A stretch of DNA of 32,472 nucleotides from Pigoraptor vietnamica (Eukaryota > Opisthokonta > Filasterea), in the NCBI GenBank assembly GCA_943704525.1, contig CALSCQ010001116.1, positions 1-32,472 on the forward strand, given 5' to 3'. The translations under genes were made by a program, and so were the position numbers. The notes below the pieces were generated by a model that made no database searches, was not told the origin of the DNA, and worked only from the letters and a program-made list of their open reading frames with translations. This document shows, piece after piece, positions 21-31,200 of the stretch (the first letter of the stretch is position 1; each line of letters opens with the position of its first letter).

Positions 21-4066
<4,046 letters not shown>

Positions 4067-4271: not shown

Positions 4272-7200
4272 TCACACGCTTGAAGTATCCGGCAGAACGA
4301 GATCAAGATATGTTCCGGGACGCTGCAAGGCAGCACGTGCGCCGGATGAAACAACCGACTCTTCTGGAACCGTAACAGTTGAGATAGCCACGGCCTCCAG
4401 CGCCAACCCTGTCGCACTTCGCTGCAGGGCAGGTGTGTTGTCTGCCGTCCGTGTGTGCCTGCTCGCGGCCGACAACGTGGTCGTCTGAGACACAAGGTCC
4501 GAAAACGATGGTCTCGCCCTTGGATCCGTGTGCCAACAGCAGCGGACGAGGTCGAATAGAGGCTCGGGGCAGAGTGGTGGGCGCTCAAGGCGAAGCCCGG
4601 CACGAAGGCGCGTCAACAGCTCGGAAATCGCAACGCCCTCTATGTAGGCACCAATATAGAATGAACCGTCCGTCAGCACAAAATGCATCCACGCCCGCCA
4701 ACTTAGACAAGACGAACGGAGAGCAGGAGCGACTCGACTGGCAAAAACAGAGAGACGGCAGCCACACAGTGGAGAAAAAATAAGAAAAAAAAAAACAAAA
4801 CACCTACCGTATGGGACACGGCCGAACGCAAAGCACTCCCACACGCAGACGCCGTATGACCACCTGCCGACACGGTCCAGACCTACTATAAGACTCAAAT
4901 TGCCGGTGACTGACTGAGTCGGTCAATGCAGCACACTACTCACACGTCCGTCTGCTCGCTGTACTTGCGCTCGGAAATGACCTCGGGTGCCATCCATCGC
5001 AGCGGAAGGCGCTCTTTCCCGCCACGCTTGCTTCTGTAGTACTCGGAAGACCCCTCGGTGTGACGCGAGAGACCAAAGTCGGCGATCTTCGCCAAATAAT
5101 CGCCGAAAGAATCCTGACCGATCAGTACGTTTCTCGCCGCCAGGTCGCGATGTCTTCGGCCGTTGAAATGGGAAGAAGAAAAAGTCGGGACGGGGTAATG
5201 ATGCAATGATAAGCAAAAAAAAAAAGGACTGGTCGAACGCATATCCAACACCGTCGAGTCACGGCACAACACGTCTAACGCACACAGCCGGTTACGGCCC
5301 GATGCGCACACTGCCGAATTCACAGACACTCACACAATCCCGACCGACGCGAGGTACTCCATGCCGCGTGCAATGTGAAGCGCGAAGCCGAGCAGCAAGA
5401 AATGCGTGCTCGTCGTCGTGCGGCGGTGCTGCGGAATCGCCTGAACGAACGAGCGCAGGCTTCCGTGCGTCGCAAACTCGAGCAGGATCAGCATAGGCTC
5501 CTTGTTCACCGCGACGCCCACGAGCGAGATGACGTTCGGGTGGACTTGAAGTCCGCTCATCACTTCGGCCTCGTCGATAAACGCGATTCGCTCCCGGTAC
5601 GTCGAACCGTCGCGCAGCAGCTTGGCGGCACAGAGACGCCGGAGACCCCACGCAGTGAGCAGGGCCTTCTGTACGATCCCGAACTCGCCCTGGCCGAGGG
5701 GACCCATCAAGTCAATGTCGTCATGGGACACTTCGAGGGAGGAGAGCTTGCTCTGCACGGCGGGCTTTCGAAAGTGGTCCGCGAGAAATCGTTCGTGTGA
5801 CATGCGGCTTGCGGCGCGCCTTTCGGCCCTCAGTCGACGCCACATGAACGCCGCCACGACCAAGAGGGCAGCGCAGGGTACAATGACGGCAGGAAGTACG
5901 ACCGATAGTCGGAGATCCGTGTCTGTAACTGGGACATTTCGAAAAGAGGTGATTAGCGTGTATAGGGGTACTGAATGTTGGCCTAACAGGCACACATATT
6001 TGTGAGTCCGGGGGTCTCTCGCAGGAAGCAACACAAAGCACACACACCCAAGAAAGCACGCACACACACAAACACACACCCGCACACGCACACGCACACG
6101 CACACGCCTACGCACACGCGCACACAACCAAACAAACGCACGCGCGCGCACACACACACACACACACGCACACAAGCACACACACACACGCCACACACAC
6201 ACACACGGACACACGCACGCACGCACGCACGCACGCACACACTCACAGAGACAGCGGCAAACTCACTGTTGTCAGAACTGCCGTTGCTGTCCGCATCGGC
6301 GTCTGCAGGTGCTGCGAAAGCGACCAGCACACTCATCGTGCCGGCACTGCCAGCACTGCGCACCGAGCCAACGCTATCCGAATCGCCGATTCCGCCAAGG
6401 ACAACGACGGCGGTCCGGTTGACCGGTGTGCAGGCGCGCACGCTATAGTATGTTTGCGGAAATTCGATGCAGGAGGCCGCGTACGCCGCTTGTCGAAATG
6501 CAACAGCGGCATGGCCCTGTACACCCGTTGGGAGCTTCCCGCTGAACTCGGCCCATGCATTCTGGTGCAAGTCGTAAACAAACGTGTCCGCCGACTTTTC
6601 CGAGACGCTGTCGCCGCCGATAAGGAGGATGCGACGCGAATCGAGCTGAACGGCCGCAAGACGGGCGAGGGCCGGGGGCCCCGTCCCCGCGGGCTTGAGA
6701 AGCGTCCACGTACGAGACACTGGGGAAAGAGGGTTAGACCCGGATTATGTCACAAGTATTTTACACACATTGCGAATGCAAAAGGAAGTTGCCATCTGAC
6801 GAGGCAAGATTACATACCGACTTCGAACTTCCAAAACTCGCTTGAAAGGACGGTATTAACTTCGCCGCCGTACACCCCGAAAGCAGTGTCGCTCATTTGT
6901 ACGGCCGCGTGGTCACGCCGAGGAACAGGCCCCGCGCCGGTCCATTCGAGTTGACTCCAACGCTAGCAATCGGCAGGTGTGCAAGTGAGCGAGTCGAAGA
7001 CGCATAACGAGTCCCCCCGCCATTCACCATCCCCATTTGACCGTGCGAAAGGCCCCGTACCCCACCACGCACTGATAAAGTGCGCACCCATTTTCCATGC
7101 GACACGCAGCGTGCGTCAAAAAAAATGCTATTAAGAAACTGAACAAATCCGAGGGGAGAACCCCACCTTAGTGGCAAAGTCGAAGCGCCAGAGGTCGCCA

Positions 7201-10200
7201 GTTTGAGTGTGCTCGTTCTCCCCGCCGAAAGCAAACAGAGCACCCATCACTACGACGCACGAGTGACGAGAGCGTGGTCTGGGATATATGTCGACTGGAA
7301 TGGTCAAAGTCCACGTGCCTGCACACCAACTCGTTGTGTCACCTCCAGTGCGTCGGCATCAAATTTTTTGTGCGCCACATCCACAAAGACAGGCGCAACG
7401 CACCCATCCGACTACCCATCCACACACACACGCGCGCGCGCGTACGCGTAGACAAATGCACGAATCGCAATATACGCGCACACAGCGGTTGGGAATGCGC
7501 GCGCACACAACATATTAACTGAAGACGCCGTACACATCATGCCACAAAACTCACAAACGCGCTCACAAGGAAATTGCTCGTTAACAAGAGATGGCCGCGG
7601 CCGTTGTCAAATAGGGCTTCTTACCGCGCACGATGTCGAATTCCCATAAATCGTTCGTAACAGTGCTGCCATGGGAAGTGGGCAGGCTGCCACCAAAGAC
7701 GTACATGCGGCCTTGGCTGTGGACGGCGCAATGGCGCTCCCGGGGCAGTGGCCAACTGCCATTGTTGTAAGCAACTTCCTTCCACTCAAGAAGATCTGCA
7801 AGGCGCAACAGCCGGAGGGGAAGGCCACCGCTAAGCCGATGCACAGCCGAATTCATAAAAATACATACAGTGATCGCACGCCCGAAGCATGCATATGGGA
7901 ACGAACGAATGCGAGACACTGACCACCATCAAGCTGCAAAGCACAAACCCGCATAAAAAGACACTTGCCGTAGTTTAGTAAATACGTCTTATTGGTGGTC
8001 GTATCGCCGACATGGCCGCCAAACACGATGATCGTATTATTCTCCGTTACGACAGTAGAGTGATACGAACACGCCGGCGGCACACTGTTGAAACTGGCGA
8101 CTTCACCCCAAGACCAGTCCCCTGTGGACTCGACATGGTGTCAGACCGAGAAGGGCACGTGCCACATGATGTCACTCCATGCAAAGGCACGGCGAGGGAG
8201 TTATCAACACGTTGTGATTAATGGTAGACGCGGGTTCCAACGGCACGACAATCACACTGAGCAGAGACACCAACCGGCAGTCGGTGACCGGGGCGCAAAG
8301 TCGCCCGTCGCCGAGTCAACGCCCGTGCGCAGCGAAACCTTGAGCTCTTCGAGCGCCCACGTTATCCAACCAACGGCACTCAACGTCACGACGACGGGGC
8401 ATTGCGATCCGGAGTCAGCGCGGACCGAGACAGTCCGCAAATCTTGCATGCGCTCGCACGACTGGGTTTCATAATGGCTTTAAAAGAAGAAGGAGAAGAA
8501 GAAGAAAAAAGAGCTCATTGCATCGAAGAATATTACGACAGCCAATTACAAGCGAAGAGTATCGGAAAAACGCACCTGAAACGACGCATTGGCGCATGCG
8601 GCAAATGCAATTCCGTCATTGCTCGCATCGAGCGCAAAATTGCCGCCTGCGAACGTGCCGTTGAAACGGCGCTCGAGCGCAAGGCCAATGGCAAGCCCAA
8701 TTCGCTTAACAGCGGAGCCAAGCAGCCTGTCGGCGTAGGCAGAACCGGCGAAGGTGGTCTGGCTTTCGTCGCGGTCAACGCCTATAACGAAAACGCCACG
8801 TGACGCAGCGTAGAGAATCGCCGAGGAACCCGCCCCTCCCGCACAACCGAAGATGACGTCCGCGCCGCTGTCGATGAAATCTGAGCTCGCATTGGATGAA
8901 ATGGCGAGTCAGGAGTAGCGGGCGGAACAGAAGCAAGTGGTATTGCAGCACGTCATAAACAGGCGGTCCCCGACAAAGGCGAAAGAAGAGAGGACAAAAA
9001 TACACGCACATCAGAGGGAACAAGACAAACCGTGCTTACCCGCTGCCATCGACATTGAAAGAGTTGCGTCGTCAAATTTGGGAAGGTAACCGGCACGCAC
9101 TTTGCAGTCCTTACAGACGACATTGACGCCCTTCGCGAAGCCGTTGCGAAAACGCCGCACTGGCTCTAACGGGACGCCCGCAATTATGCCCACAACGCGC
9201 GACTGCAGAGCGCAGGGCAATGTTGTCACAGACGGAGGGGCCGGCCACACAAGAAAGAAACTACAGCACTCGGACCCTCCCGCACATTGAGTTCACGCAC
9301 GACGACGGCGCTCGTTAGAAAATTAAGAAGATTGAAAACTTCGCCCCGGAGTCAGCATACCTTCGTCACGACACCTGCTCCGTGCCAGCGCAGAACTTAC
9401 ATTTAGCTATAGTCAAGGATGGGCAGTTGAAGGGGAAAGCAGCGACTGATTGAGGCAATACAGCAGAAACTCCGATCCAAAACTCGGCGCAAAACCCACC
9501 CGCAACGAGGCCAGCCATGTAGCCTGCCTGGTCCTCGGCGAACACAGCCCCTTGGAGGTTGCCAGAGTGCGCGTCGGTAATTGCGCTATCGATGAGGGTG
9601 AATGCAACGTTTTGATGCATGGCCGCGGCACTCTGGAGCAAGGGCTCATACTGGGCGCCCATCGCGATGACGTGGACGACTGTGATGGGGCTCCTTTGTA
9701 CGGCAGCCGCGATCGTTAGCAAAATAAGAGTGAACATGGCTTCTAAACCGCGCGGAGAGGGTCATCCCAAAGGGCGCGAACCCGCGCATCGGAGTGATAG
9801 GAACGGTGGCACCGAACACTTTCCCGCACACAATTGACAATCATGTCAGCACAGAGACACAAACAGCGCCGGCAACGCACCGCACGCACGCACACACTCA
9901 CTTTGCGATTCGGTCGCTCAAGACATTCCCTTTGTCCGTGGTCGGAATTGTCGTGTCGAGGGTGCATCGTTCCTCCCCAAAGAAAGCCCTCGTCGTATTT
10001 CTGCAGCCTTCCCATATGAGGGCAGCGAATTCGTTTGGCGTTCCCTCTGTGTGCCGGCAACAACAACAGTCCAAGGACGGTGCAGGAAACGCGCAGGTTA
10101 GCAACGCCGGAGGGACGTGTGCGGAACGAGTACAACAGCTGCTAATAGAAAATCATGGCGCATTCACAGTATATGCGTCTGCGCGCGGCGCACATGCACA

Positions 10201-10227
10201 ATGGACCCGCCAGCACAGCGAAGCAGA

Positions 10228-10293
<66 letters not shown>

Positions 10294-10698
10294 ACCGACA
10301 GAGACTCGCACGCCTGCTCGTAGGGACACGAAAGAAACGCCAACTCAAGACGCACACAGCGTTCAATCTCGGAACATTGACAGGCGACGAAAAATAATAC
10401 CGCGATTTGACAACATAGCTCATCAAACCACTAAGACCCCACCCGAAGCGACGATATTGCCCTCTGCAAGCACAAGCACCGTGACGTTGGCGCTCGGCGG
10501 GATCGCGGCGGACAGAGACCACGCCTTCCGGAGCCGCGCGTGTGACAACGGCGCTTGGGCAGCATCGCGCTCACGAGCCGGCGAACTTCGGAGATCGCCG
10601 GCAGAGCTTGCATCAATCGTGTTGGCATTTGTGTGTGCGAGTAAATGGCACGCAAGCACGAAGAAGGAGGCGATGCGAACAACAGCTAGCGCCGTCAT
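4272..10698 (-). CDS. Receptor tyrosine kinase with BMP/PnrA-like and Kelch ectodomain
   Basis: Predicted cell-surface receptor of 1188 residues. Sixteen exons, all phases consistent: 10698-10443, 10046-9902, 9693-9500, 9374-9361, 9202-9040, 8880-8576, 8461-8275, 8121-7969, 7795-7625, 7318-7167, 6962-6818, 6719-6267, 5928-5334, 5153-4944, 4863-4808, 4639-4272. Signal peptide at residues 1-25. Residues ~70-420 match the BMP/Med/PnrA periplasmic-binding family ([41 protein letters not shown] at 290-295). Six Kelch repeats occupy ~422-745 ([42 protein letters not shown]). Transmembrane helix ~787-809. Kinase ~850-1118 has GQGEFG, Lys882, HRDLAARN (Asp981), DFG (Asp1003), paired Tyr1016-1017, [10 protein letters not shown] and DVWSYG, which mark a tyrosine rather than Ser/Thr kinase. 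The tail ends in a TYLDLV motif. Several N-glycosylation sequons lie in the ectodomain. The ligand is unknown; bacterial relatives bind nucleosides. Confidence 0.88.
6060..6245 (-). repeat. Imperfect (CA/GT)n and CACG-rich tract in a receptor-kinase intron
   Basis: Mixed CACACA, CGCACA and ACGC repeats fill most of intron 5929-6266, between the last Kelch exon and the transmembrane exon. Read on the gene's strand it is GT-rich, downstream of the GTGAGT donor. Confidence 0.9.
7796..7968 (-). other. Probable GC-AG intron in the receptor kinase
   Basis: Between Kelch exons the only donor that keeps the frame (phase 1) and the repeat pattern reads GCAAGT after TACG. The acceptor is TTGCAG. Joining here gives [14 protein letters not shown], a normal Kelch blade junction. 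The nearest GT, four bases on, gives the wrong phase. Confidence 0.7.
9361..9374 (-). other. 14-nt microexon (exon 4 of the receptor kinase)
   Basis: The exon before it ends in phase 1 at 9500 and the exon after it begins in phase 0 at 9202, so a direct join breaks the frame. This 14-base stretch has AG before it and GTATGC after it. It restores the frame and adds the residues GVVTK between YMAGLVA and SRVVGIIAG. That is the place where bacterial BMP proteins carry a short Thr/Lys-containing linker before the VG strand. Confidence 0.75.
10229..10289 (-). repeat. (CA)n microsatellite, sense-strand (GT)n, receptor-kinase intron 1
   Basis: About 30 uninterrupted dinucleotide units inside intron 10047-10442. 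On the coding strand the tract reads (GT)n. It splits the signal-peptide exon from the next BMP exon. Confidence 0.97.
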
Positions 10699-10919: not shown

Positions 10920-12662
10920 TTATTCGAGTAGTTTTCGCACACGCGACAGTGGCTCTCTGTTGGCAATAGGACAGCCCTTCACGCTCAGCACGCACACACG
11001 CTCGAGATGAGAAACGTCAGTCACACGCCGACAGCCATCCAGAATGAGAGTGTGGACGCCGCCAAGCATGGAGACATCCGACACCGGCGTGTGCGCTAAG
11101 TCGAGGTGGTAGACGCCGCCGAGCTGCGACACATCCTCCACTCTACAAAGTGCGAGGCTCAGGGTGTGCACCCGACCGAGCGCGGATACGTCGACGTCCG
11201 TTACCGCACAGCGGCTAAGATTCAAGTTGCGAACGGACCCGAGCTTCGAGAAGTCAGAAATGGCCTCACAGTAAGAGAGGTTGAGGGCAGACAAGTTGCC
11301 GAGCGCGGAAACGTCCTTTACGGGCGTGTTGTGGAGAGTGAGTGTGTGGACGTGCCAGAGCGCGCTGACATCTAAAACATTCGCGGACGAGAGATCGAGC
11401 GTGTGACAGTTACGCAGGGCGGCAAGGCCTTGGACGACAGTGCCCGACCGGCGGCCCCCAAACTGAAGACGAAGCGTATGTACGCGGCCGAATGTTGAGA
11501 CGTCCGACACTCTAGTAAACGACAGGTCGAGCGTATGCACCGAGCCCAGCGCACGACACACCTCGTCCGTCCACTCGAAGCACGATTGCGAGAGGTCGAC
11601 CTCGTGCACGCCATTGAGCGACGCAAGGCCGACCAGATCGTGCATTTCGGTCAGTCGGAGCGTGTGGACGCGACCGAGTGCCGAAACGTCGAGATCCTCA
11701 CACATAGAGAGCTCGAGCGTGTGGGCGGCGCCGAGCATGGACACGTCCTTCACTTGGCCACACTCGCGGAGGATGAGTGTTCTGACGCGACCGGCGGCCG
11801 ATACGTCGACGAGGCTACTGGACTCTGAAAGGTCGAGAAAGCGGAGGCACCCCAGCTCGGGCGGGATCGACGTCAGCTGGGAATTGTGCCACGTGAACGA
11901 GCGGAGGTATGTCGACGGCGGCAGCGCAACGACAGACCTGGCGTAGAGGACAACTTCGCGCGCGTTCTCCAGCACGCGGAGATCGGCGTCATGCACGCCC
12001 CCAACGGTAACACAGTGCGCGAGTCGCAATGCCGAGATGCCGCCATACCTATTCCGGGGCGTGAGGCGAACGTTTACGCGCCGCACACCTTCGAGGGAAG
12101 AAAGGTCGGGCGTCTCCGTACCGTAGAGATAAACCGACTCGGCCTTGCGGAAGGGAGGCAGCGCGCCCTTGTACCAGCCGAGCGTGAGGTCGCGAACGTC
12201 AGCCAAGTGTGCGAGGGCATCCGCCAGTGGACATTGGACGTTCCAAAAAGACATGGTCACAGTGTGGACGCCCCGAAGTGGGCTCAAGTCGGTCGCCCCG
12301 CACGTGTCTTGTTCAAATTGTTCTGGTCTCATGAAGATGGCCGAGTGGACGCCCGCGAAAGGAGTGAGGTCGGTGAGCTCCTTCCACCCGTAGAGAACGA
12401 GGCGGTCGACGGGAATGAAGCTCTTGACCTCCTCGCGAAACGCGCCGTCCTCGACGAACTTGCGGTTGTAGAGTGGCCACAGGTGGTAGAGACGCTCGCG
12501 GCGGAGGACGCGAAAGAGGCGCCCGCACGTTTTGGCCAGCGCGGCCGTGTCTATGGTCGAGAGGTAGGGCAGAATGTGGACGACGATCGTCTCCGCGGGG
12601 AGCGAGTCGAGGTTGGGTGCGTCATTCCCGCCGGCGTGAACGCTGACGGCGGTGGACTGCAT
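10920..12662 (-). CDS. F-box / leucine-rich-repeat protein, intronless
   Basis: 580-residue protein in a single exon, ATG at 12662 and TAA at 10920. Residues ~17-60 form an F-box (LPAETIVVHILPYL, then an LAKTCGRLFRVL helix), which would bind Skp1 in an SCF ubiquitin ligase. From about residue 75 to the end run irregular leucine-rich repeats of about 22 residues with the consensus DVSxLGxVHTLxLS. At least fifteen are recognisable and they would form the substrate-recognition solenoid. A pyrimidine-rich stretch ending in CTGACAG lies just upstream of the ATG, so a 5'-UTR intron is possible. It is the only gene here without coding introns. The stop is 221 bp upstream of the receptor-kinase start on the same strand. 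Substrate unknown. Confidence 0.85.
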   Translation of the reverse strand: MQSTAVSVHAGGNDAPNLDSLPAETIVVHILPYLSTIDTAALAKTCGRLFRVLRRERLYHLWPLYNRKFVEDGAFREEVKSFIPVDRLVLYGWKELTDLTPFAGVHSAIFMRPEQFEQDTCGATDLSPLRGVHTVTMSFWNVQCPLADALAHLADVRDLTLGWYKGALPPFRKAESVYLYGTETPDLSSLEGVRRVNVRLTPRNRYGGISALRLAHCVTVGGVHDADLRVLENAREVVLYARSVVALPPSTYLRSFTWHNSQLTSIPPELGCLRFLDLSESSSLVDVSAAGRVRTLILRECGQVKDVSMLGAAHTLELSMCEDLDVSALGRVHTLRLTEMHDLVGLASLNGVHEVDLSQSCFEWTDEVCRALGSVHTLDLSFTRVSDVSTFGRVHTLRLQFGGRRSGTVVQGLAALRNCHTLDLSSANVLDVSALWHVHTLTLHNTPVKDVSALGNLSALNLSYCEAISDFSKLGSVRNLNLSRCAVTDVDVSALGRVHTLSLALCRVEDVSQLGGVYHLDLAHTPVSDVSMLGGVHTLILDGCRRVTDVSHLERVCVLSVKGCPIANREPLSRVRKLLE

Positions 12663-12972
12663 CGCGTATTCTGTCAGGAAGGAGAAAGTAAAAGCATGAG
12701 TATTAGGACTGCCTTCCCTCCAAACAACGCCACCCAAACTCGCCTCTCGAGAAAAAAGAAGCGAGAGAGAGAAAAGTGGGTAGGTTTGATGTTCGATTGG
12801 GAAAAGTTTGAACGTCATGAAGTGCAGTTGTTGAATAACGGTGTTTTTCAGTGGATCCGGACAGCCCAGACACACCAGCCGAGAACGGCCCCTCGAACTC
12901 TTCAGTTGTTCCTGCACTTCGTCGCACGCACTTTCGCAAAGTGTGGCATGCAGGGAGCGCTTCTCTATTTGA
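12663..12972. promoter_or_regulatory. Divergent promoter region between the F-box/LRR and P450 genes
   Basis: 310 bp between two start codons on opposite strands, so it must hold both 5' ends. I see no clear TATA box. A pyrimidine-rich run followed by CTGACAG on the minus strand (about 12671-12690) may be a 5'-UTR intron acceptor. Confidence 0.5.
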
Positions 12973-14282
12973 ATGGACGGCGGGCAAGGGTCGCTGCTGC
13001 GTGCGGTGGGCGCGGCGGTGGCTGTTGTCATCATCACTGCGGTGTGCTGGGTGCGATGGAGGACGCGTCGCACGCACGTGCGCGAGACGGCGCAGAGGCG
13101 AGTGGACGGAGAAAGAGGCCAGCAAGGAAAGGGAGGGGGAGTGAGTGCTGTGAACGAACTCGCGGATTCGATCGAGCGCGTGGATGGCGCAGTGTGCATC
13201 ACGTCGCTTCGTGGCATTACGCTCGCACTACGCGACAAGGCGCTTTCGGCGAATGCAATTGGCGGCATTTTCGGCCGTTTGAGCGACGTCGAGAGAGGGT
13301 CGTTTGCGCACATGGAGGGTGTGCTGAGGGCGCAGTTGCTGTCGCTGGAAGGGGCGCGGCACACGCGCGTGAGGCGGGTGATCGCGAGGCACTTTCGACA
13401 GAGCGAGTGGGTGGAAGAAGGGGATGCGCTCTTGTGCGCGAGTTGTCACGCGCGACTGTGTCTTTTTGACTTGACTCTCACGCGGCGCCTGCCTCGCCCT
13501 TACAACTCACTCTCCTGCATGCCTCTACTCACTCCATCTCAGGTGTGTTCGTCGCACTCCCCTGGTCGAGATGCATGCGAATCGCGCTGTGGACGCACTT
13601 CGCAGCGATATGGAATCCCTTGGCAGTGCCGATCTCGTCCCTATTGCGGCACAGTTCTCCCTCAGTGTGCGTTGAACGTGACTGCGCGCACACTCCGACT
13701 GTCACTTATAAGGGGGGGCCATCAAGGCTCTCTCTCCGTATATCCCCCTTCGATTGTGAGCCAACGCCACGCTGCACACGCCGCTGTCGTCGCACAACAC
13801 TCCTCTAGTTCGTCCCCCTTCTCCTTCTCACCGCTAAGCGCCTCTCTTTGCTCGCCGTAGGTCATCCTCGGCATGCTCGGAATCGACGCGTCGCACGGCG
13901 CTCTTATGCTGTCGTGCACGCGTGCCATCGAGGACGTCTTTGGCCCGCACGACGACGAGGGCCTTTTGCTTGCATGCGCCCGCGCGGACTCGTTCCTCCG
14001 CGAATGTGAGGCTGTCGTGTTGCAGCGCATGGGTGTGGAGCGTGAGGGATGGAGTACTGAAGCTCCCGAGCTCACCGGCGGTGGGCACGAGAGAGTGGGG
14101 GATAGTGCGGACGATCGGGAAAGCGACGAAGAAGCCGACGGCAGCGTGTCATCCGATGGTGCAATTCTCGACGATTTTGCGCGACTCGTGCGAGAAGGAG
14201 TATTGACGACGACGGAGGTGCGTACACGTACATTGCGGTTTGTGGGTGGCCGAGGCAGTTATCCTCTCGAAGACTTTACTCG

Positions 14283-18426: not shown

Positions 18427-18867
18427 TTCTTTGGAGGGGCGTGGGATGGGTTCGTGAGAGGAGCTCCTGTTCGCGCTTTTCTGTTCTCAGTGGTTGAGCG
18501 TTACTCCGCCGGCACGTGCAATGCGCGTTACTCTCATATCACGTGATCAACCGCTGTTCTATTTCAGGTATCACGTGCGCTTCTATATTTAAGCTCAGGG
18601 GTGGTAAATTTCCTTTTATGTAACGAGGGAATGTGGCCATGTTACTCCACATGACCCTTGTCGCCAGTTTCTCCGCATCACGTCACGTCGCCCCAACAAA
18701 AGGAAAAGAAAACAAACGAGCCTTGGCATATCCCACACAGTGGCACGCGGGACACGCTTTCTTACGCATATAATCCTTACCGCACATTCGTTTTTTTCGT
18801 GCGATCATGTCGTAAACTCCTGTGTGTCATGTTGGGGTGTGTATGTTGGGGTGTGTGACTGCCACCA
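18427..18867. promoter_or_regulatory. Divergent promoter between the RbfA-like and MFS genes
   Basis: 441 bp between opposed start codons. It holds a palindromic TCACGTGA at 18539-18546 and TCACGTGC at 18571-18578, which are E-box/bZIP-like sites. A TATATTTAAG at 18584-18593 could be a TATA box for either side. GTTAC or GTAAC occurs at 18500, 18527, 18620 and 18641, twice as GTTACTCC. The motifs are direct observation; function is inference. Confidence 0.5.
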
Positions 18868-20273
18868 ATGGCTGATGCCGCTGTGAACGCGCACAAGGCC
18901 GACTTTGTCGCGCCTCGGCGGTGCTGGCGACCCACGCCATGGCTCGTCGCGCCCGTTCTCTTTCTCTCGCTCTACATGGCGCTGATCCAAGTGACGGTGC
19001 TTCAGCTGGCCGTGCAGGACATCATGTGCGAACGGTACGCCAATCGCACCGAATATCCCAACCCGCGCCAGTGCAAGGACGACCACGCGAGCTCGAAGGC
19101 GTCGCTGTGGGCCATGTACTTCAACTTAGCCGTCACAATTCCTTCGATCGTGTCGGCTGGCACTCTGGGCGCGCTGTCGGACACATACGGACGCCGCATC
19201 ATGATCTTTCTCCCGTCGCTTGGGGCCGCGATCCAGTCCTTTCTCTTCGTCGTGTGGTCCCACTTTGACCTGCGCCTCGAGTTTCTGTTTGTCGGCCAGT
19301 TTGTCTGGGGCATCTCGGGCGGCGTACCGACGCTGTTGATGGCGGTGTTCGCGTACGTCGCTGACGCCTGCGCGCCCGGCCAGCGCTCGCTTGCGATTGG
19401 CCTCATGGAGTCGATGGTTTATCTCGGATCGGCGGCCGGACCCCTCACTGCGGGCGTGCTGAGCAAGTGGGTCGCTGCATGTTTCGTAGGCTCGCGATGA
19501 TTCTCAGTTTCGTACGTGTTCTGTTGTTCTTTGTCTCTGTTTTGACACTAGGTCCATCGCGTGTTCGCAGGCACTTTGGCCACGCGACGCCCTTCGCCGT
19601 CGCGGGTGGCGTGCTCGCTGCCATCGCCCTCTACAGCGTCTTTCTCCCCGAGTCGCTCTCAGAGGACAAACGCAAGTCGCGGCCCACGTGGCGAAAGGCG
19701 AATCTCATTGGCGCACTGTCCATTCTCGTGCGGCCGACGACGCAGGGACACAAACAGTGAGTCTCTTACACGTGATTGTGTGCTGCGCCCATGGCATGTG
19801 TGGTCGAGCACTGTGACTATTATGCTGACCGAATGACGTGTGTGGATGTGACCTTGCGCACGAGCGTCGCCCTTGCGATCGTGCGTTGTGTTCGCGCTTG
19901 CTCATACGCAACCCCTCCCTCTGCATCGTTGCAGCGCACTCGTCTTCCTCAGCGTCGCCTTCTCCCTCGTCTACACAAACGCCCTCGGCTTTCAAACGGT
20001 GACTCTCCTCTTCACGCGGCGCAAGTTTGGGTGGGACTCGGACATGGCCGGCTACTTTCTCTCCTCCGATTACGTCGCGCGGTTCGCTGTCGTGCTATGC
20101 CTCCTGCCGCTCTACTACGCCGCCATTCGCAAGCGCATTTCGGAGCCGCGTTTTGTGCAGCTCAGCCTGTTGTTTGCCGTCGCCAGCGCTATCGGCTTCT
20201 CGCTCGTGAACACTACGACGCAGATGATGGGAGGTGCGTGCAACTGTGGTAATGCTTTCTTGTTGTGTTGGAT

Positions 20274-20316
<43 letters not shown>

Positions 20317-20864
20317 AAGTGTGTATGTGTACGTGTGTGCATGTGCGTGCGTGTGTGTCCGTGTGTGTTGCACTTTGTTCTAATCCCTTGCCTGCCGCAG
20401 TTATCGCGATCGATGCATTCGGCGGCTTCTCTCTCCCAATTATGCGCGCCCTCTTCAGCCGCTTCGTGCTCCCCACCGAGCAAGGCGCCGTCTTCAGCGC
20501 AATCGCCGCGCTAGAGAGCATCTTCGGCATTGTCTCCCCGCTCCTGTTCAATAGCGTCTACTCTGCAACAAGCCGCGTGTACCCCGGCCTGAGTTACGCC
20601 ATCATGGGGGCGCTCGCGTGCGTCAGCATCCTGTCGCTCACGCAAGTTCCTGCGCCGGGTGAAGAAGGTTACGGACTCCTTCGTGCCAGCGACGATGAAG
20701 AGGCATGTGCTGCGTCTGGTACGGAGGAATGGTGCGAGGACGCCTCTCGTGTCGAGGAACCCGACCTGCGGCCGTACGGCGCTGTAGGGGGACTGCCCGC
20801 GCGGTGCGTTGGGTCTCGCGACAGTGCCGCGGATAGGTTGCTGGGGCGCAACTCGGACGTCTGA
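18868..20864 (+). CDS. Major facilitator superfamily transporter, SLC46-like
   Basis: 515 residues. Exons: 18868-19466, 19571-19756, 19935-20233, 20401-20864, phases 2, 2 and 1, TGA stop. Start ATG sits in a CCACCAATGG context. Residues 24-48 form the first membrane helix, followed by a loop with Cys54 and Cys69, an NRT glycosylation sequon and then helix 2. The MFS motif-A loop is GALSDTYGRR (101-110). About twelve hydrophobic segments follow, with a VVAxxGISGG-like helix 4-5 region (FVWGISGGVPTLLMAVFAYV) and a charged C-terminal tail. The arrangement, with the loop after helix 1, resembles the SLC46 (proton-coupled folate and related) and tetracycline-transporter-like branch. Substrate cannot be told from sequence. 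Intron 3 holds a GT microsatellite. Confidence 0.85.
20275..20315 (+). repeat. (GT)n microsatellite in MFS intron 3
   Basis: About 20 GT units on the sense strand in intron 20234-20400, followed by degenerate GT-rich sequence to about 20370. The donor is GTGCGT. Confidence 0.96.
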
Positions 20865-28204: not shown

Positions 28205-31200
28205 TCACCGCTTCTGCTGCGGTGCCCACTTTCCGGGCGTCGCACCGTCCTTCGGCTTGCGCACGCCACCCTGCCCTCCCGACGCGCCTCCAGCGGCTGG
28301 TGAGCTGTACGTGACGCTGCGCTGTCCAGACTTGGGACGGACATTTGCGCGCACGCGGCCACCGCCACGCTTCGGCTCGATCGTCTCCGAGTAAGGGTTA
28401 AAGACCGGCGCCTGTGCGTTGAGGGGGCGACCACCCTGATCAACACCAGCGCCCGCCGCACCCATCGCAGCACCGGCCGACGAATAGTCGTAAGGGACAA
28501 ACTGGGTGCCCTCAGGAAGACGGCGCCCAACGGGCTTGCCGCCAGCACCGCCAGCACCGCCCCGGATGGCTGCACGAGAATGGGTTAGGAAGGCCCGTTA
28601 GCGAGTGGGATAACGCGCACACTTCCAACATGACAAATTTGAACGCACACACATAAAACGATGTGCCCACACCACAACGCCATTCTCACTAACACGCACC
28701 TGCGCCAGAGCCCTTGGGGCCGGAAAGTGCATTCGCAATCGCCGCATTCGCTGCGCTCGAAACGGCAGCGGCACTCGACAGGCTGCCCGCCGCGTCCTGT
28801 CGCGACGCCCCGCCCGGCGCAGCGCCGGACGGATTCCACCCAATTCGCCGCATAAAGGCATTGACGTCCTCGCCCTCGGCCGCCTTGGGAACGCCCGCGG
28901 GGCCGTGGTCATCCATGCCGACACTATCGAGCATCGCAGGATCGGATCCCGAGCGCTCGCGCGAGTGCGCGCCAGAAAGTCCCACGGTGTTGAGGCTGTT
29001 CGTGCTGTTGTTTGCACTGCTTCGTGTCATCCCACTCGCCCCGGCCGCTGCGGCTGCCGCGCCGTTTTCGAGAGTGAGCGGTGAGAGGGGCATGGCGAAC
29101 GAGTCCTCCTTCAGCCGCTTCTTCTCCTTGTTGCGCTTGCGGTTCATGTTCGACAGCTGGTAAATCTCAGAGTAGCTCCGCGGCTCCCGCTGGCCCATGG
29201 GGGTCGGCGGCTTGGCGGGAATTTCGGCGGGCGCGTGCTCACCCGTCGTCACAGAAGATGCCGCCGCTGCAGGTGCTCCGGTCCCTTCGGCCGCTGCAGA
29301 CGTCGCACTGCTCGTGTTGGCGCCCGCGGCCGCAGGAGCGCCCGAGGACGTGCGCGCCTGAATGTGCGCGAGGGGCGACTCGAACGACCCGTGAATTCCG
29401 CGCGCCACTGCACGCGCGTCCGCCAGCGACACCGCCCCGCCACCGATGAGGCCTGCCGGGATGGTCGCAGAGGGTTGAAAGAGACCGCCCGAGCCCACGA
29501 CGCCGGCGTCCTCGTCCGCGTAGTCGTCCAGCGCAGCGCCGTCCACGTCCATGGCCGCGGCATCGCCCTGCGCCGATGCTATCGTCACGCCGGCACCGTC
29601 TGTGGGAGGGCTGGCGACCCACCCCGCAAACTGGAAGAGCTGGTGCGGCGTGACTATGGGCGCGTGGGGCTGGGACGCCTGCTGGGGCTGCACAGGGGCA
29701 GACGGCGCGGGGATGGCCTGTGCGGCGCCGTACGCACCGCCGAGATCGATGCCGACCTGCTGCGCCACTTGTTGCGGGGGCGGCGGCGGTTGCGCGTCGG
29801 CCGAGACGCTCTCTTTGGCCTTCTGAATGGCGACGACGAGGTCTCCGGCGCCGACACGCACGAGCGGAGGCGTGGGGTTGCAGCACGCGATCACGCCCGA
29901 GGGCTCCGTGGGCATGGCCTCAGCGATCGCAAACATCATGTGGTTGGGGAGTACGTAGCGCGTGCTCTCGTCTTCGTCCCTCGCGACACGATCGCGCCAG
30001 GCGTAGACGGCCTTCAAGACGGCGAGCTGCTGCGACGAGAGGGGTCGGCTGTAGCGCGCGTAGAGGTGGAGGTGGCTCGTATCGGTGAGGAGCTCCTTTT
30101 CGTATCGCTTCAGGCAAATGTCGCGGCTCCGGTTGAGCGCTGCGATGAGGAGGTTCTTGTTGGCGCCGCCGCGCATGATGAGCTCCGTCCGTAGCTTGTC
30201 GTAAATGTAGAGCAGGTAGTGCGTGTCCTCGCGCGCGTAACGGAGCATCTCGGCGGGAATCGGCCGCATGCGCCAGTCGGCGAGCTGGTACTTCTTGTCC
30301 GCGTTAACGTTGCAGTACGTCTTGAGGAGGTGGGCGAGGCCAAAGCTAGGGAAGTCGAGAAGGCGCGCGGCCTGTCCCGTGTCGAACAGATTGACAATGT
30401 AGAGCCCAAAGTCCCTCTGCAGCCACACAACGTCGCTGTCGGCGCCGTGGAGGACCTTGACGATCCGAGGGTCCGTGAACGGCTTGTGCAGGGCAGACTG
30501 CGGGATAAGTTCACGAAAGGACAAACGTCAGAATATTTGTTCCGAAGCGAATAATTATCAACGGACAAACATAGACAAAATATCTGACACCCCCGTAACC
30601 ATACACAAATGCAGTTGCGAAAACGACACACCTGCATGTGCGACCGCAGCTCGAGCGTGTCAACGAGAAAGTCCTCGTCGCGCGTGGACACCTGCATCAG
30701 GCACACAATGCCCTGGAACGAGCGATAGCTGTGCTGCTCGAGGTCAATCGCAAACTCAGAGACGCCCTCCAGCTTGCGACCGAGCGCCTGCAGAAGCGCG
30801 GGGGTGTCGACCCACGTGCACGGCACCTGTGGACACAACAAGAAACGGGAAAAGGTAAAGAGCGACGAATGTGAGCCTCGAGAACGACAACGAAAACAGC
30901 AGCCTTAAACGCGGACGACGCAGCCAAAAGATACAGCGCACCGTGTCGCCGAGCCACGTGCAGGTCCCAACAGCGCAGCGCACCTGCTCCAAGGGAAGAG
31001 GCGCGCGCTCCTCGCCGACTTCGAGCTGCTCCGCCGTCGGCTTCCAGCTCTCGAGCTCGAGCTGAAACGGGTGCGGATAACCGCCGGGCACAATGCCGCC
31101 ATCGTCCGACGAGATGCCGAGTCCTCGAATGTGCGATTGAATGTGGGGCGGTACAACGTCCCGCTCTGGCGAGGGACCGCGGCTGTGGGGCGGGACGCCG

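Follow-up and report, generated by a model that had tools for sequence, protein, structure and literature searches.

In the Venus kinase receptors (VKRs), a binding-protein head drives a tyrosine kinase in response to amino acids, arginine among them (PMC3703292, PMC4026697); in Dictyostelium, a flytrap head equips the receptor fAR1 to sense the bacterial cues folate and lipopolysaccharide (PMC5969738). The BMP family of binding proteins is represented in bacteria by BmpA, the conserved pocket residues of which are Phe27, Phe151, Phe176, Val224, Asp225 and Lys242, with Asp98 among the contacts to ribose (PMC13325309, 2026). Here we describe a gene in which a head of this BMP type, followed by a Kelch propeller, precedes a tyrosine kinase. 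It lies on a stretch of 32,472 nucleotides (contig CALSCQ010001116.1, C446 in our numbering; the whole stretch is termed the window) within a genome of 32.5 Mb in 1395 contigs. On balance we favor the reading, drawn from sequence, that the product would be a single-pass receptor tyrosine kinase (RTK) in which a PnrA-type nucleoside-binding head is followed by a Kelch propeller of six blades, and which a nucleoside-like metabolite would gate.

The first-pass annotation of this DNA had proposed a domain order of signal peptide, BMP domain, six Kelch repeats, one transmembrane (TM) helix and tyrosine kinase, and this order is borne out by Pfam, by hydropathy and by the positions of motifs. In the joined protein all three kinds of model scored above their curated cut-offs: PF07714 at 1.8e-74 (residues 853-1118), Bmp PF02608 at 2.1e-32 (residues 142-351; 112.8 bits against a cut-off of 24.1) and Kelch PF24681 at 1.7e-68, one of seven Kelch or propeller models in all to do so. 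The BMP match falls inside residues 60-420, the N-terminal part to which that domain had been assigned. Among the unjoined exons of the window, three are matched by PF02608 and two by PF07714. For the BMP part, Pfam gives Bmp and Peripla_BP_4 only; a scan of the joined protein at E values up to 1, in which the HMMER filters drop most matches above 0.1, returned no match to the ANF-receptor family, and the Pfam scan of the protein likewise gave none to the cyclase model PF00211 or to 7tm_3, the protein having a single internal hydrophobic segment. Six Kelch blade motifs of the GG type stand at residues 453, 504, 558, 609, 660 and 734 (a seventh match to the blade pattern, GAG at 589, was left uncounted), and the PDB list for the Kelch part includes LZTR1, KLHDC and other Kelch chains.

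A signal peptide and one TM helix N-terminal of the kinase are predicted by hydropathy, in which just two separate hydrophobic segments of 19 residues reach 1.6, at residue 3 (the signal peptide) and at residue 789 (the TM helix). Between these two, 765 residues hold 10 N-glycosylation sequons, where shuffling expects 4.4 (0.7% of shuffles reach 10), and the 380 residues C-terminal of the TM helix hold none (0.5 expected). A location of the BMP-Kelch part outside the cell would fit this distribution, because sequons are found N-terminal of the helix only.

The kinase is, by sequence, a true tyrosine kinase. All of its active-site motifs are present (GQGEFG, the AAK lysine, paired activation-loop tyrosines and PLRWMAPE), and the best 60 of 2549 PDB matches are all tyrosine kinases (EGFR, FGFR1/3/4, EphB4, Tie2). 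In a kinase tree of 50 rows, midpoint-rooted and with no insulin-receptor sequence among the rows, the window kinase falls in a group of 35 rows (70%) that mostly read HRDLAARN. Profile score, motifs and tree position uphold the full tyrosine kinase, with every catalytic motif, that had been claimed. Its sister in the tree (100%) is a kinase of the same genome, on contig C327, which belongs to a single-exon open frame of 1378 codons (L051:631-4767) encoding an RTK with signal peptide and TM helix recognizable by eye; its ectodomain, long and repetitive, contains neither BMP nor Kelch and gave no Pfam hit at E 0.01. The nearest relative found for the window kinase in this genome carries another ectodomain. 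Tail motifs are similar (GTYLDLV in the window protein, SYLNLTV in L051, GTYIDLV in the paralogue introduced below), and that of the window protein is a predicted phosphotyrosine docking site. Counted by exon, the genome contains 177 PF07714 matches (Ser/Thr kinases included), 27 SH2 matches and 16 tyrosine phosphatase matches, which indicates that writers, readers and erasers of phosphotyrosine are all present.

The gene runs on the minus strand from 10698 to 4272, where 16 exons as modelled join in a single frame, with no internal stop, into 1188 residues plus a stop codon; the genome holds a second, collinear copy with the same exon plan (the paralogue L024, on contig C1015). Domain frames guided the manual placing of the junctions, each of which was checked against L024. 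Automatic exon prediction by codon bias was discarded: exons were missed, and codon bias is weak in this DNA. The parts of the gene are as follows.

10443..10698, minus strand: exon 1; start codon, signal peptide (hydrophobic core, residues 3-21) and first BMP strand
9902..10046, minus strand: exon 2; BMP, with F92 (equivalent of BmpA F27) inside a 10-residue stretch
9500..9693, minus strand: exon 3; BMP, with D169 (equivalent of the ribose Asp); PF02608 exon match 9432-9671
9361..9374, minus strand: exon 4; a 14-base micro-exon, GVVTK (L024 counterpart also 14 bases, GIVTK)
9040..9202, minus strand: exon 5; BMP, with F221 and F246 (base-stacking Phe equivalent); PF02608 exon match 9041-9205
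8576..8880, minus strand: exon 6; BMP, with V292-D293 (VIGVDRDE) and K316; PF02608 exon match 8600-8905
8275..8461, minus strand: exon 7; end of BMP and linker
6267..8121, minus strand: exons 8-12, Kelch propeller (8121-7969, 7795-7625, 7318-7167, 6962-6818, 6719-6267)
5334..5928, minus strand: exon 13; TM helix (5902-5846), juxtamembrane RRLRAERR, kinase N-lobe (GQGEFG, AAK, DEAEV)
4944..5153, minus strand: exon 14; paired activation-loop tyrosines (YY, 5041-5036), PLRWMAPE
4808..4863, minus strand: exon 15; all 18 residues compared identical in L024
4272..4639, minus strand: exon 16; end of kinase C-lobe, tail with motif GTYLDLV (4316-4296), stop codon

CA/GT microsatellites lie within introns of the receptor gene at 6050-6240 and 10230-10292, and more are found elsewhere in the window.

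The paralogue provides the principal evidence on whether these exons belong together. Each of the 15 exon queries from the window has a match in L024, and the order is the same throughout, although the first query reaches no better than E 0.007; in a hand-set L024 model the donors, acceptors and phases agree with those of the window gene at 13 of the 15 junctions. The donor of exon 1, GTGGGG, matches the L024 donor in place and phase, and intron 8 is of the GC-AG type in both genes (GCAAGT donors). The phases of the last two junctions differ because exon 14 of L024 (6411-6597) is 23 bases shorter than that of the window, and in the assembly the frame is lost there around the DFG motif; L024 may represent a recent loss or an assembly error at exon 14, and apparent constraint persists in its exons 15 and 16. 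Identity between the two genes is 67% in exons 2-16 and, measured over the longer of the two lengths, 41% in introns. The ratio of nonsynonymous to synonymous substitution rates (dN/dS) is 0.19 in the BMP part (exons 2-7), 0.24 in the Kelch part (exons 8-12) and 0.17 over exons 13, 15 and 16 taken together, figures to be read with dS near saturation and with exons 1 and 14 excluded. Because L024 shares the exon plan, including the micro-exon and the GC-AG intron, and because dN/dS is low in the exons compared, the window locus is most likely one gene; collinearity, shared junction phases and low dN/dS all agree with the first-pass annotation in placing the BMP/Kelch and kinase exons together.

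It is most improbable that two adjacent genes, one for a secreted or membrane BMP-Kelch protein and one for a separate kinase, were wrongly joined by the model. Room for such an error is offered by the intron between exons 12 and 13, which spans 338 bases and contains a CA/GT microsatellite, in a model built on DNA rather than RNA. However, L024 permits the same exon 12-13 junction in the same phase, and the open frame that holds TM exon 13 has no Met upstream of the TM helix, so that an independent kinase gene starting there would be devoid of a membrane anchor. Moreover, a database protein of the opisthokont Opistho-2 (P0003, from EukProt) unites BMP and Kelch with a hydrophobic segment and a kinase-like domain in a single chain, and at five other BMP-Kelch loci kinase matches follow downstream on the same strand, two of these being thin. 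That the locus might instead be a decaying pseudogene, as the loss of frame at the shortened exon 14 of its paralogue could suggest, is scarcely credible for a copy in which 16 of 16 exons are open, the catalytic motifs are present and dN/dS against L024 is low.

The nearest solved relatives of the window BMP domain are PnrA of Streptococcus pneumoniae (2.3e-24), TmpC/PnrA of Treponema pallidum (1.9e-19) and Lbp (3.5e-18), followed by BmpA (4.1e-17) and BmpD (7.7e-13). When the pocket residues listed above for BmpA were carried over, indirectly, via TmpC/PnrA alignments and spacing and with no direct BmpA alignment, all seven proved identical in the window protein (F92, F221, F246, V292, D293, K316 and, for Asp98, D169). 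The comparison was extended to 13 BMP-Kelch-type domains, namely those of 12 loci, counting the window, at which BMP and Kelch both occur, and of L025, which is cut by a contig end; a column was called ambiguous where two exon alignments overlap and only one gives the conserved residue. Equivalents of D225 and K242 are kept in all 13. Those of V224 and D98 are each kept in 12 (L028 having Ile at the former and being ambiguous at the latter), that of F151 in 10 (Leu in L017; ambiguous in L019 and L028) and that of F176 in nine (ambiguous in L015, L019, L025 and L026), and the F27 equivalent is Phe in nine of 10 readable domains, five of them on weak matches, and Tyr in L017.

Two observations temper the assignment of a nucleoside as ligand. 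The N-terminal loop that touches the base, which differs between PnrA and BmpD (PMC7093131), is replaced in the window protein, Asp19 and Asn28 not being kept as judged by eye; because this loop is not kept, sequence does not suffice to name the precise ligand. In addition, the riboflavin-binding BMP-fold protein 4iil matches the structure model of a homologue as well as PnrA does (the P0004 model has low mean confidence and an unreliable membrane part). A nucleoside nevertheless stands as the best guess, because the residues contacting sugar and base are kept, with riboflavin or a pterin as the main alternative. The same architecture could house another flat heteroaromatic metabolite of prey, such as riboflavin or folate/pterin, in the BMP cleft, and we regard this as an unlikely contender that deserves to be taken seriously; against it, nothing has changed at the positions described for BmpA and TmpC, whether the Asp and Lys in contact with ribose or the two stacking Phe, and the similarity of the window BMP domain to 4iil is marginal (E 0.73 versus 1.9e-19 for TmpC).

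A different proposal would have a surface glycan, a partner protein or some other ligand seen by the Kelch propeller, the BMP domain having turned structural. Kelch propellers commonly bind proteins, which counts in its favor, as does the finding that, where pocket columns can be read at all, which is true of few, the residues differ at the BMP loci for which Kelch was not seen (L014, L016, L023, L027) and in the fragment L029. On the other hand, the pocket is kept across strongly diverged BMP-Kelch copies, which would be unexpected if it were unused, and the BMP exons do not exceed the Kelch exons in dN/dS; we judge this proposal quite improbable, and retain ligand capture by the BMP domain as the preferred reading.

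The head itself also occurs outside this receptor. Other kinase exons of the genome likewise stand behind a BMP-Kelch head, and database proteins that have one include P0003, a receptor guanylyl cyclase, and class C G protein-coupled receptors (GPCRs) of two fungi (Catenaria P0004, Allomyces P0005). The protein database searched comprises 5.8 billion sequences, and matching depends on shared 5-residue words and similar length, by which distant cases could escape. With residues 1-900 as query, the 7993 candidates sharing most words were scored and yielded one Kelch protein only; the BMP region by itself (residues 150-360) gave seven matches, including the BMP-Kelch relatives. No other protein combining BMP with a tyrosine kinase was present among these seven, nor, by Pfam column, among the best 120 of 1949; P0003 does have a PF07714 match, but its domain is by eye a kinase-homology domain. 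Nor is an RTK with a BMP head described in the titles and abstract openings listed by literature searches on RTKs, BMP heads, BMP-Kelch receptors and PnrA. The first-pass annotation knew of no animal RTK with such an ectodomain, and that pairing of BMP with tyrosine kinase is indeed absent among the database matches listed; the ectodomain, however, is not special to the window receptor, serving cyclase, GPCR and other kinase outputs as well. What appears new, within the limits of these searches, is the combination of BMP, Kelch and tyrosine kinase, an RTK headed by a binding protein being already known and BMP-Kelch being known from sequence databases. BMP-Kelch thus appears to be a widespread sensor head, apparently joined in this case to an animal-type RTK kinase.

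One BMP-Kelch locus (L018, at the end of contig C126) shares 68% of 502 aligned ectodomain residues with P0003, with 100% support in a BMP tree that was rooted by choice on P0002/P0006 and from which L014, L016, L023, L027 and L029 were excluded as too short. Because of this identity, the genome is probably, to judge by that locus, from a close relative of Opistho-2, and not from an apusomonad or amoebozoan; Opistho-2 we take to be Pigoraptor chileana. Pigoraptor is placed in Filasterea. At two further loci, L023 and L027, a kinase-homology region and a guanylyl cyclase come after BMP; Kelch was not seen there, and the readable pocket columns differ. These are perhaps receptor cyclases, with another ligand for their BMP domain. 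A CPxC motif (C162-P163-C165 of P0004) occurs in P0003, P0004, P0005, P0007 and P0008 and is absent from P0002 and P0006; the window protein has a variant, VCKDC, at residue 232.

In the mechanism that we propose for the window receptor, a nucleoside or similar small metabolite, perhaps from prey bacteria or damaged cells, would close the two lobes of the PnrA domain. Closure would be relayed via the Kelch propeller, the blades of which may link or dimerize the head, and via the single helix; two kinase domains would then meet and phosphorylate each other at the paired activation-loop tyrosines, and the tail motif GTYLDLV might recruit SH2 proteins, which this genome encodes. Historically, a BMP domain of bacterial origin and Kelch probably formed a general eukaryotic sensor head that was later joined to an RTK kinase. 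We advance more tentatively the bolder view that this would be the first nucleoside-gated RTK, a case in which a unicellular holozoan wires a general eukaryotic BMP-Kelch "nutrient antenna" of bacterial origin to animal-type tyrosine phosphorylation, driven by nucleosides of prey or damaged cells, while guanylyl cyclases, TKL-type kinases and class C GPCRs serve elsewhere as outputs of the same head.

To our knowledge, what the RTKs of unicellular animal relatives sense is largely open. Were the receptor gated by a nucleoside, early RTKs would have read food chemistry before growth factors, and a dissolved small molecule, perhaps from prey, would become a tyrosine-phosphorylation signal in a likely single-celled relative of animals. 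For the head family, crystal structures and ligand measurements exist and pocket residues have been named; as seven of these residues are conserved in the window protein, ligand binding and activation become directly testable. With one sensor head common to tyrosine kinase, other kinase, guanylyl cyclase and class C GPCR outputs, and one kinase type under different heads in a single genome, a concrete picture emerges of pre-animal receptor signaling built by domain swapping.

Other coding regions share the window. Adjoining the receptor gene, an open frame at 2486-3946 (plus strand) resembles chondroitin N-acetylgalactosaminyltransferase (PF05679, 2.6e-13), which would be notable if the organism is unicellular, as is likely. 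A long open frame at 10923-13445 (minus strand) has leucine-rich repeats and an F-box-like match under the cut-off; two open frames at 18859-20861 (plus strand) have MFS transporter matches, the second under the cut-off; and 28692-30527 (minus strand) encodes a 3'-5' exonuclease with an HRDC domain, presumably Rrp6-like by its domain order.

Compared with known systems, the window receptor has its nearest precedent in the VKRs, which are invertebrate RTKs with VKR-like proteins reported in choanoflagellates. Their head is reported to belong to another family, of the ANF-receptor/class C GPCR type, in place of BMP/PnrA (PF02608) and a Kelch propeller, and their kinase to be insulin-receptor-like; EGFR, FGFR, EphB4 and Tie2 make up the best 60 of 2549 PDB matches of the window kinase. 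Within the same genome, L051 offers the nearest kinase domain and a similar tail beneath an ectodomain devoid of BMP or Kelch. P0003 resembles the window protein in its BMP and Kelch ectodomain (49% identity over the searched BMP region, residues 150-360 of the joined protein), behind which a hydrophobic segment and a kinase-like domain are likewise placed, but differs in its output, which consists of a kinase-homology domain (HGHLKSSN and GDYG, by eye) and a guanylyl cyclase rather than a tyrosine kinase. Among class C GPCRs, those of dictyostelid family 3 clades 2-7 also have a BMP-type extracellular head (PMC10445921), and the Catenaria and Allomyces proteins share the full BMP-Kelch head on a signaling receptor; all of these have a seven-helix output in contrast to the one helix and tyrosine kinase of the window receptor. 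Finally, bacterial PnrA/TmpC, Lbp, BmpA and BmpD share with it the PF02608 domain, the seven pocket positions and perhaps, to judge by the model of a homologue, the fold, but whereas they are substrate-binding proteins of ATP-binding cassette (ABC) transporters (PMC7093131, PMC13325309), the BMP domain of the window protein heads a receptor kinase.

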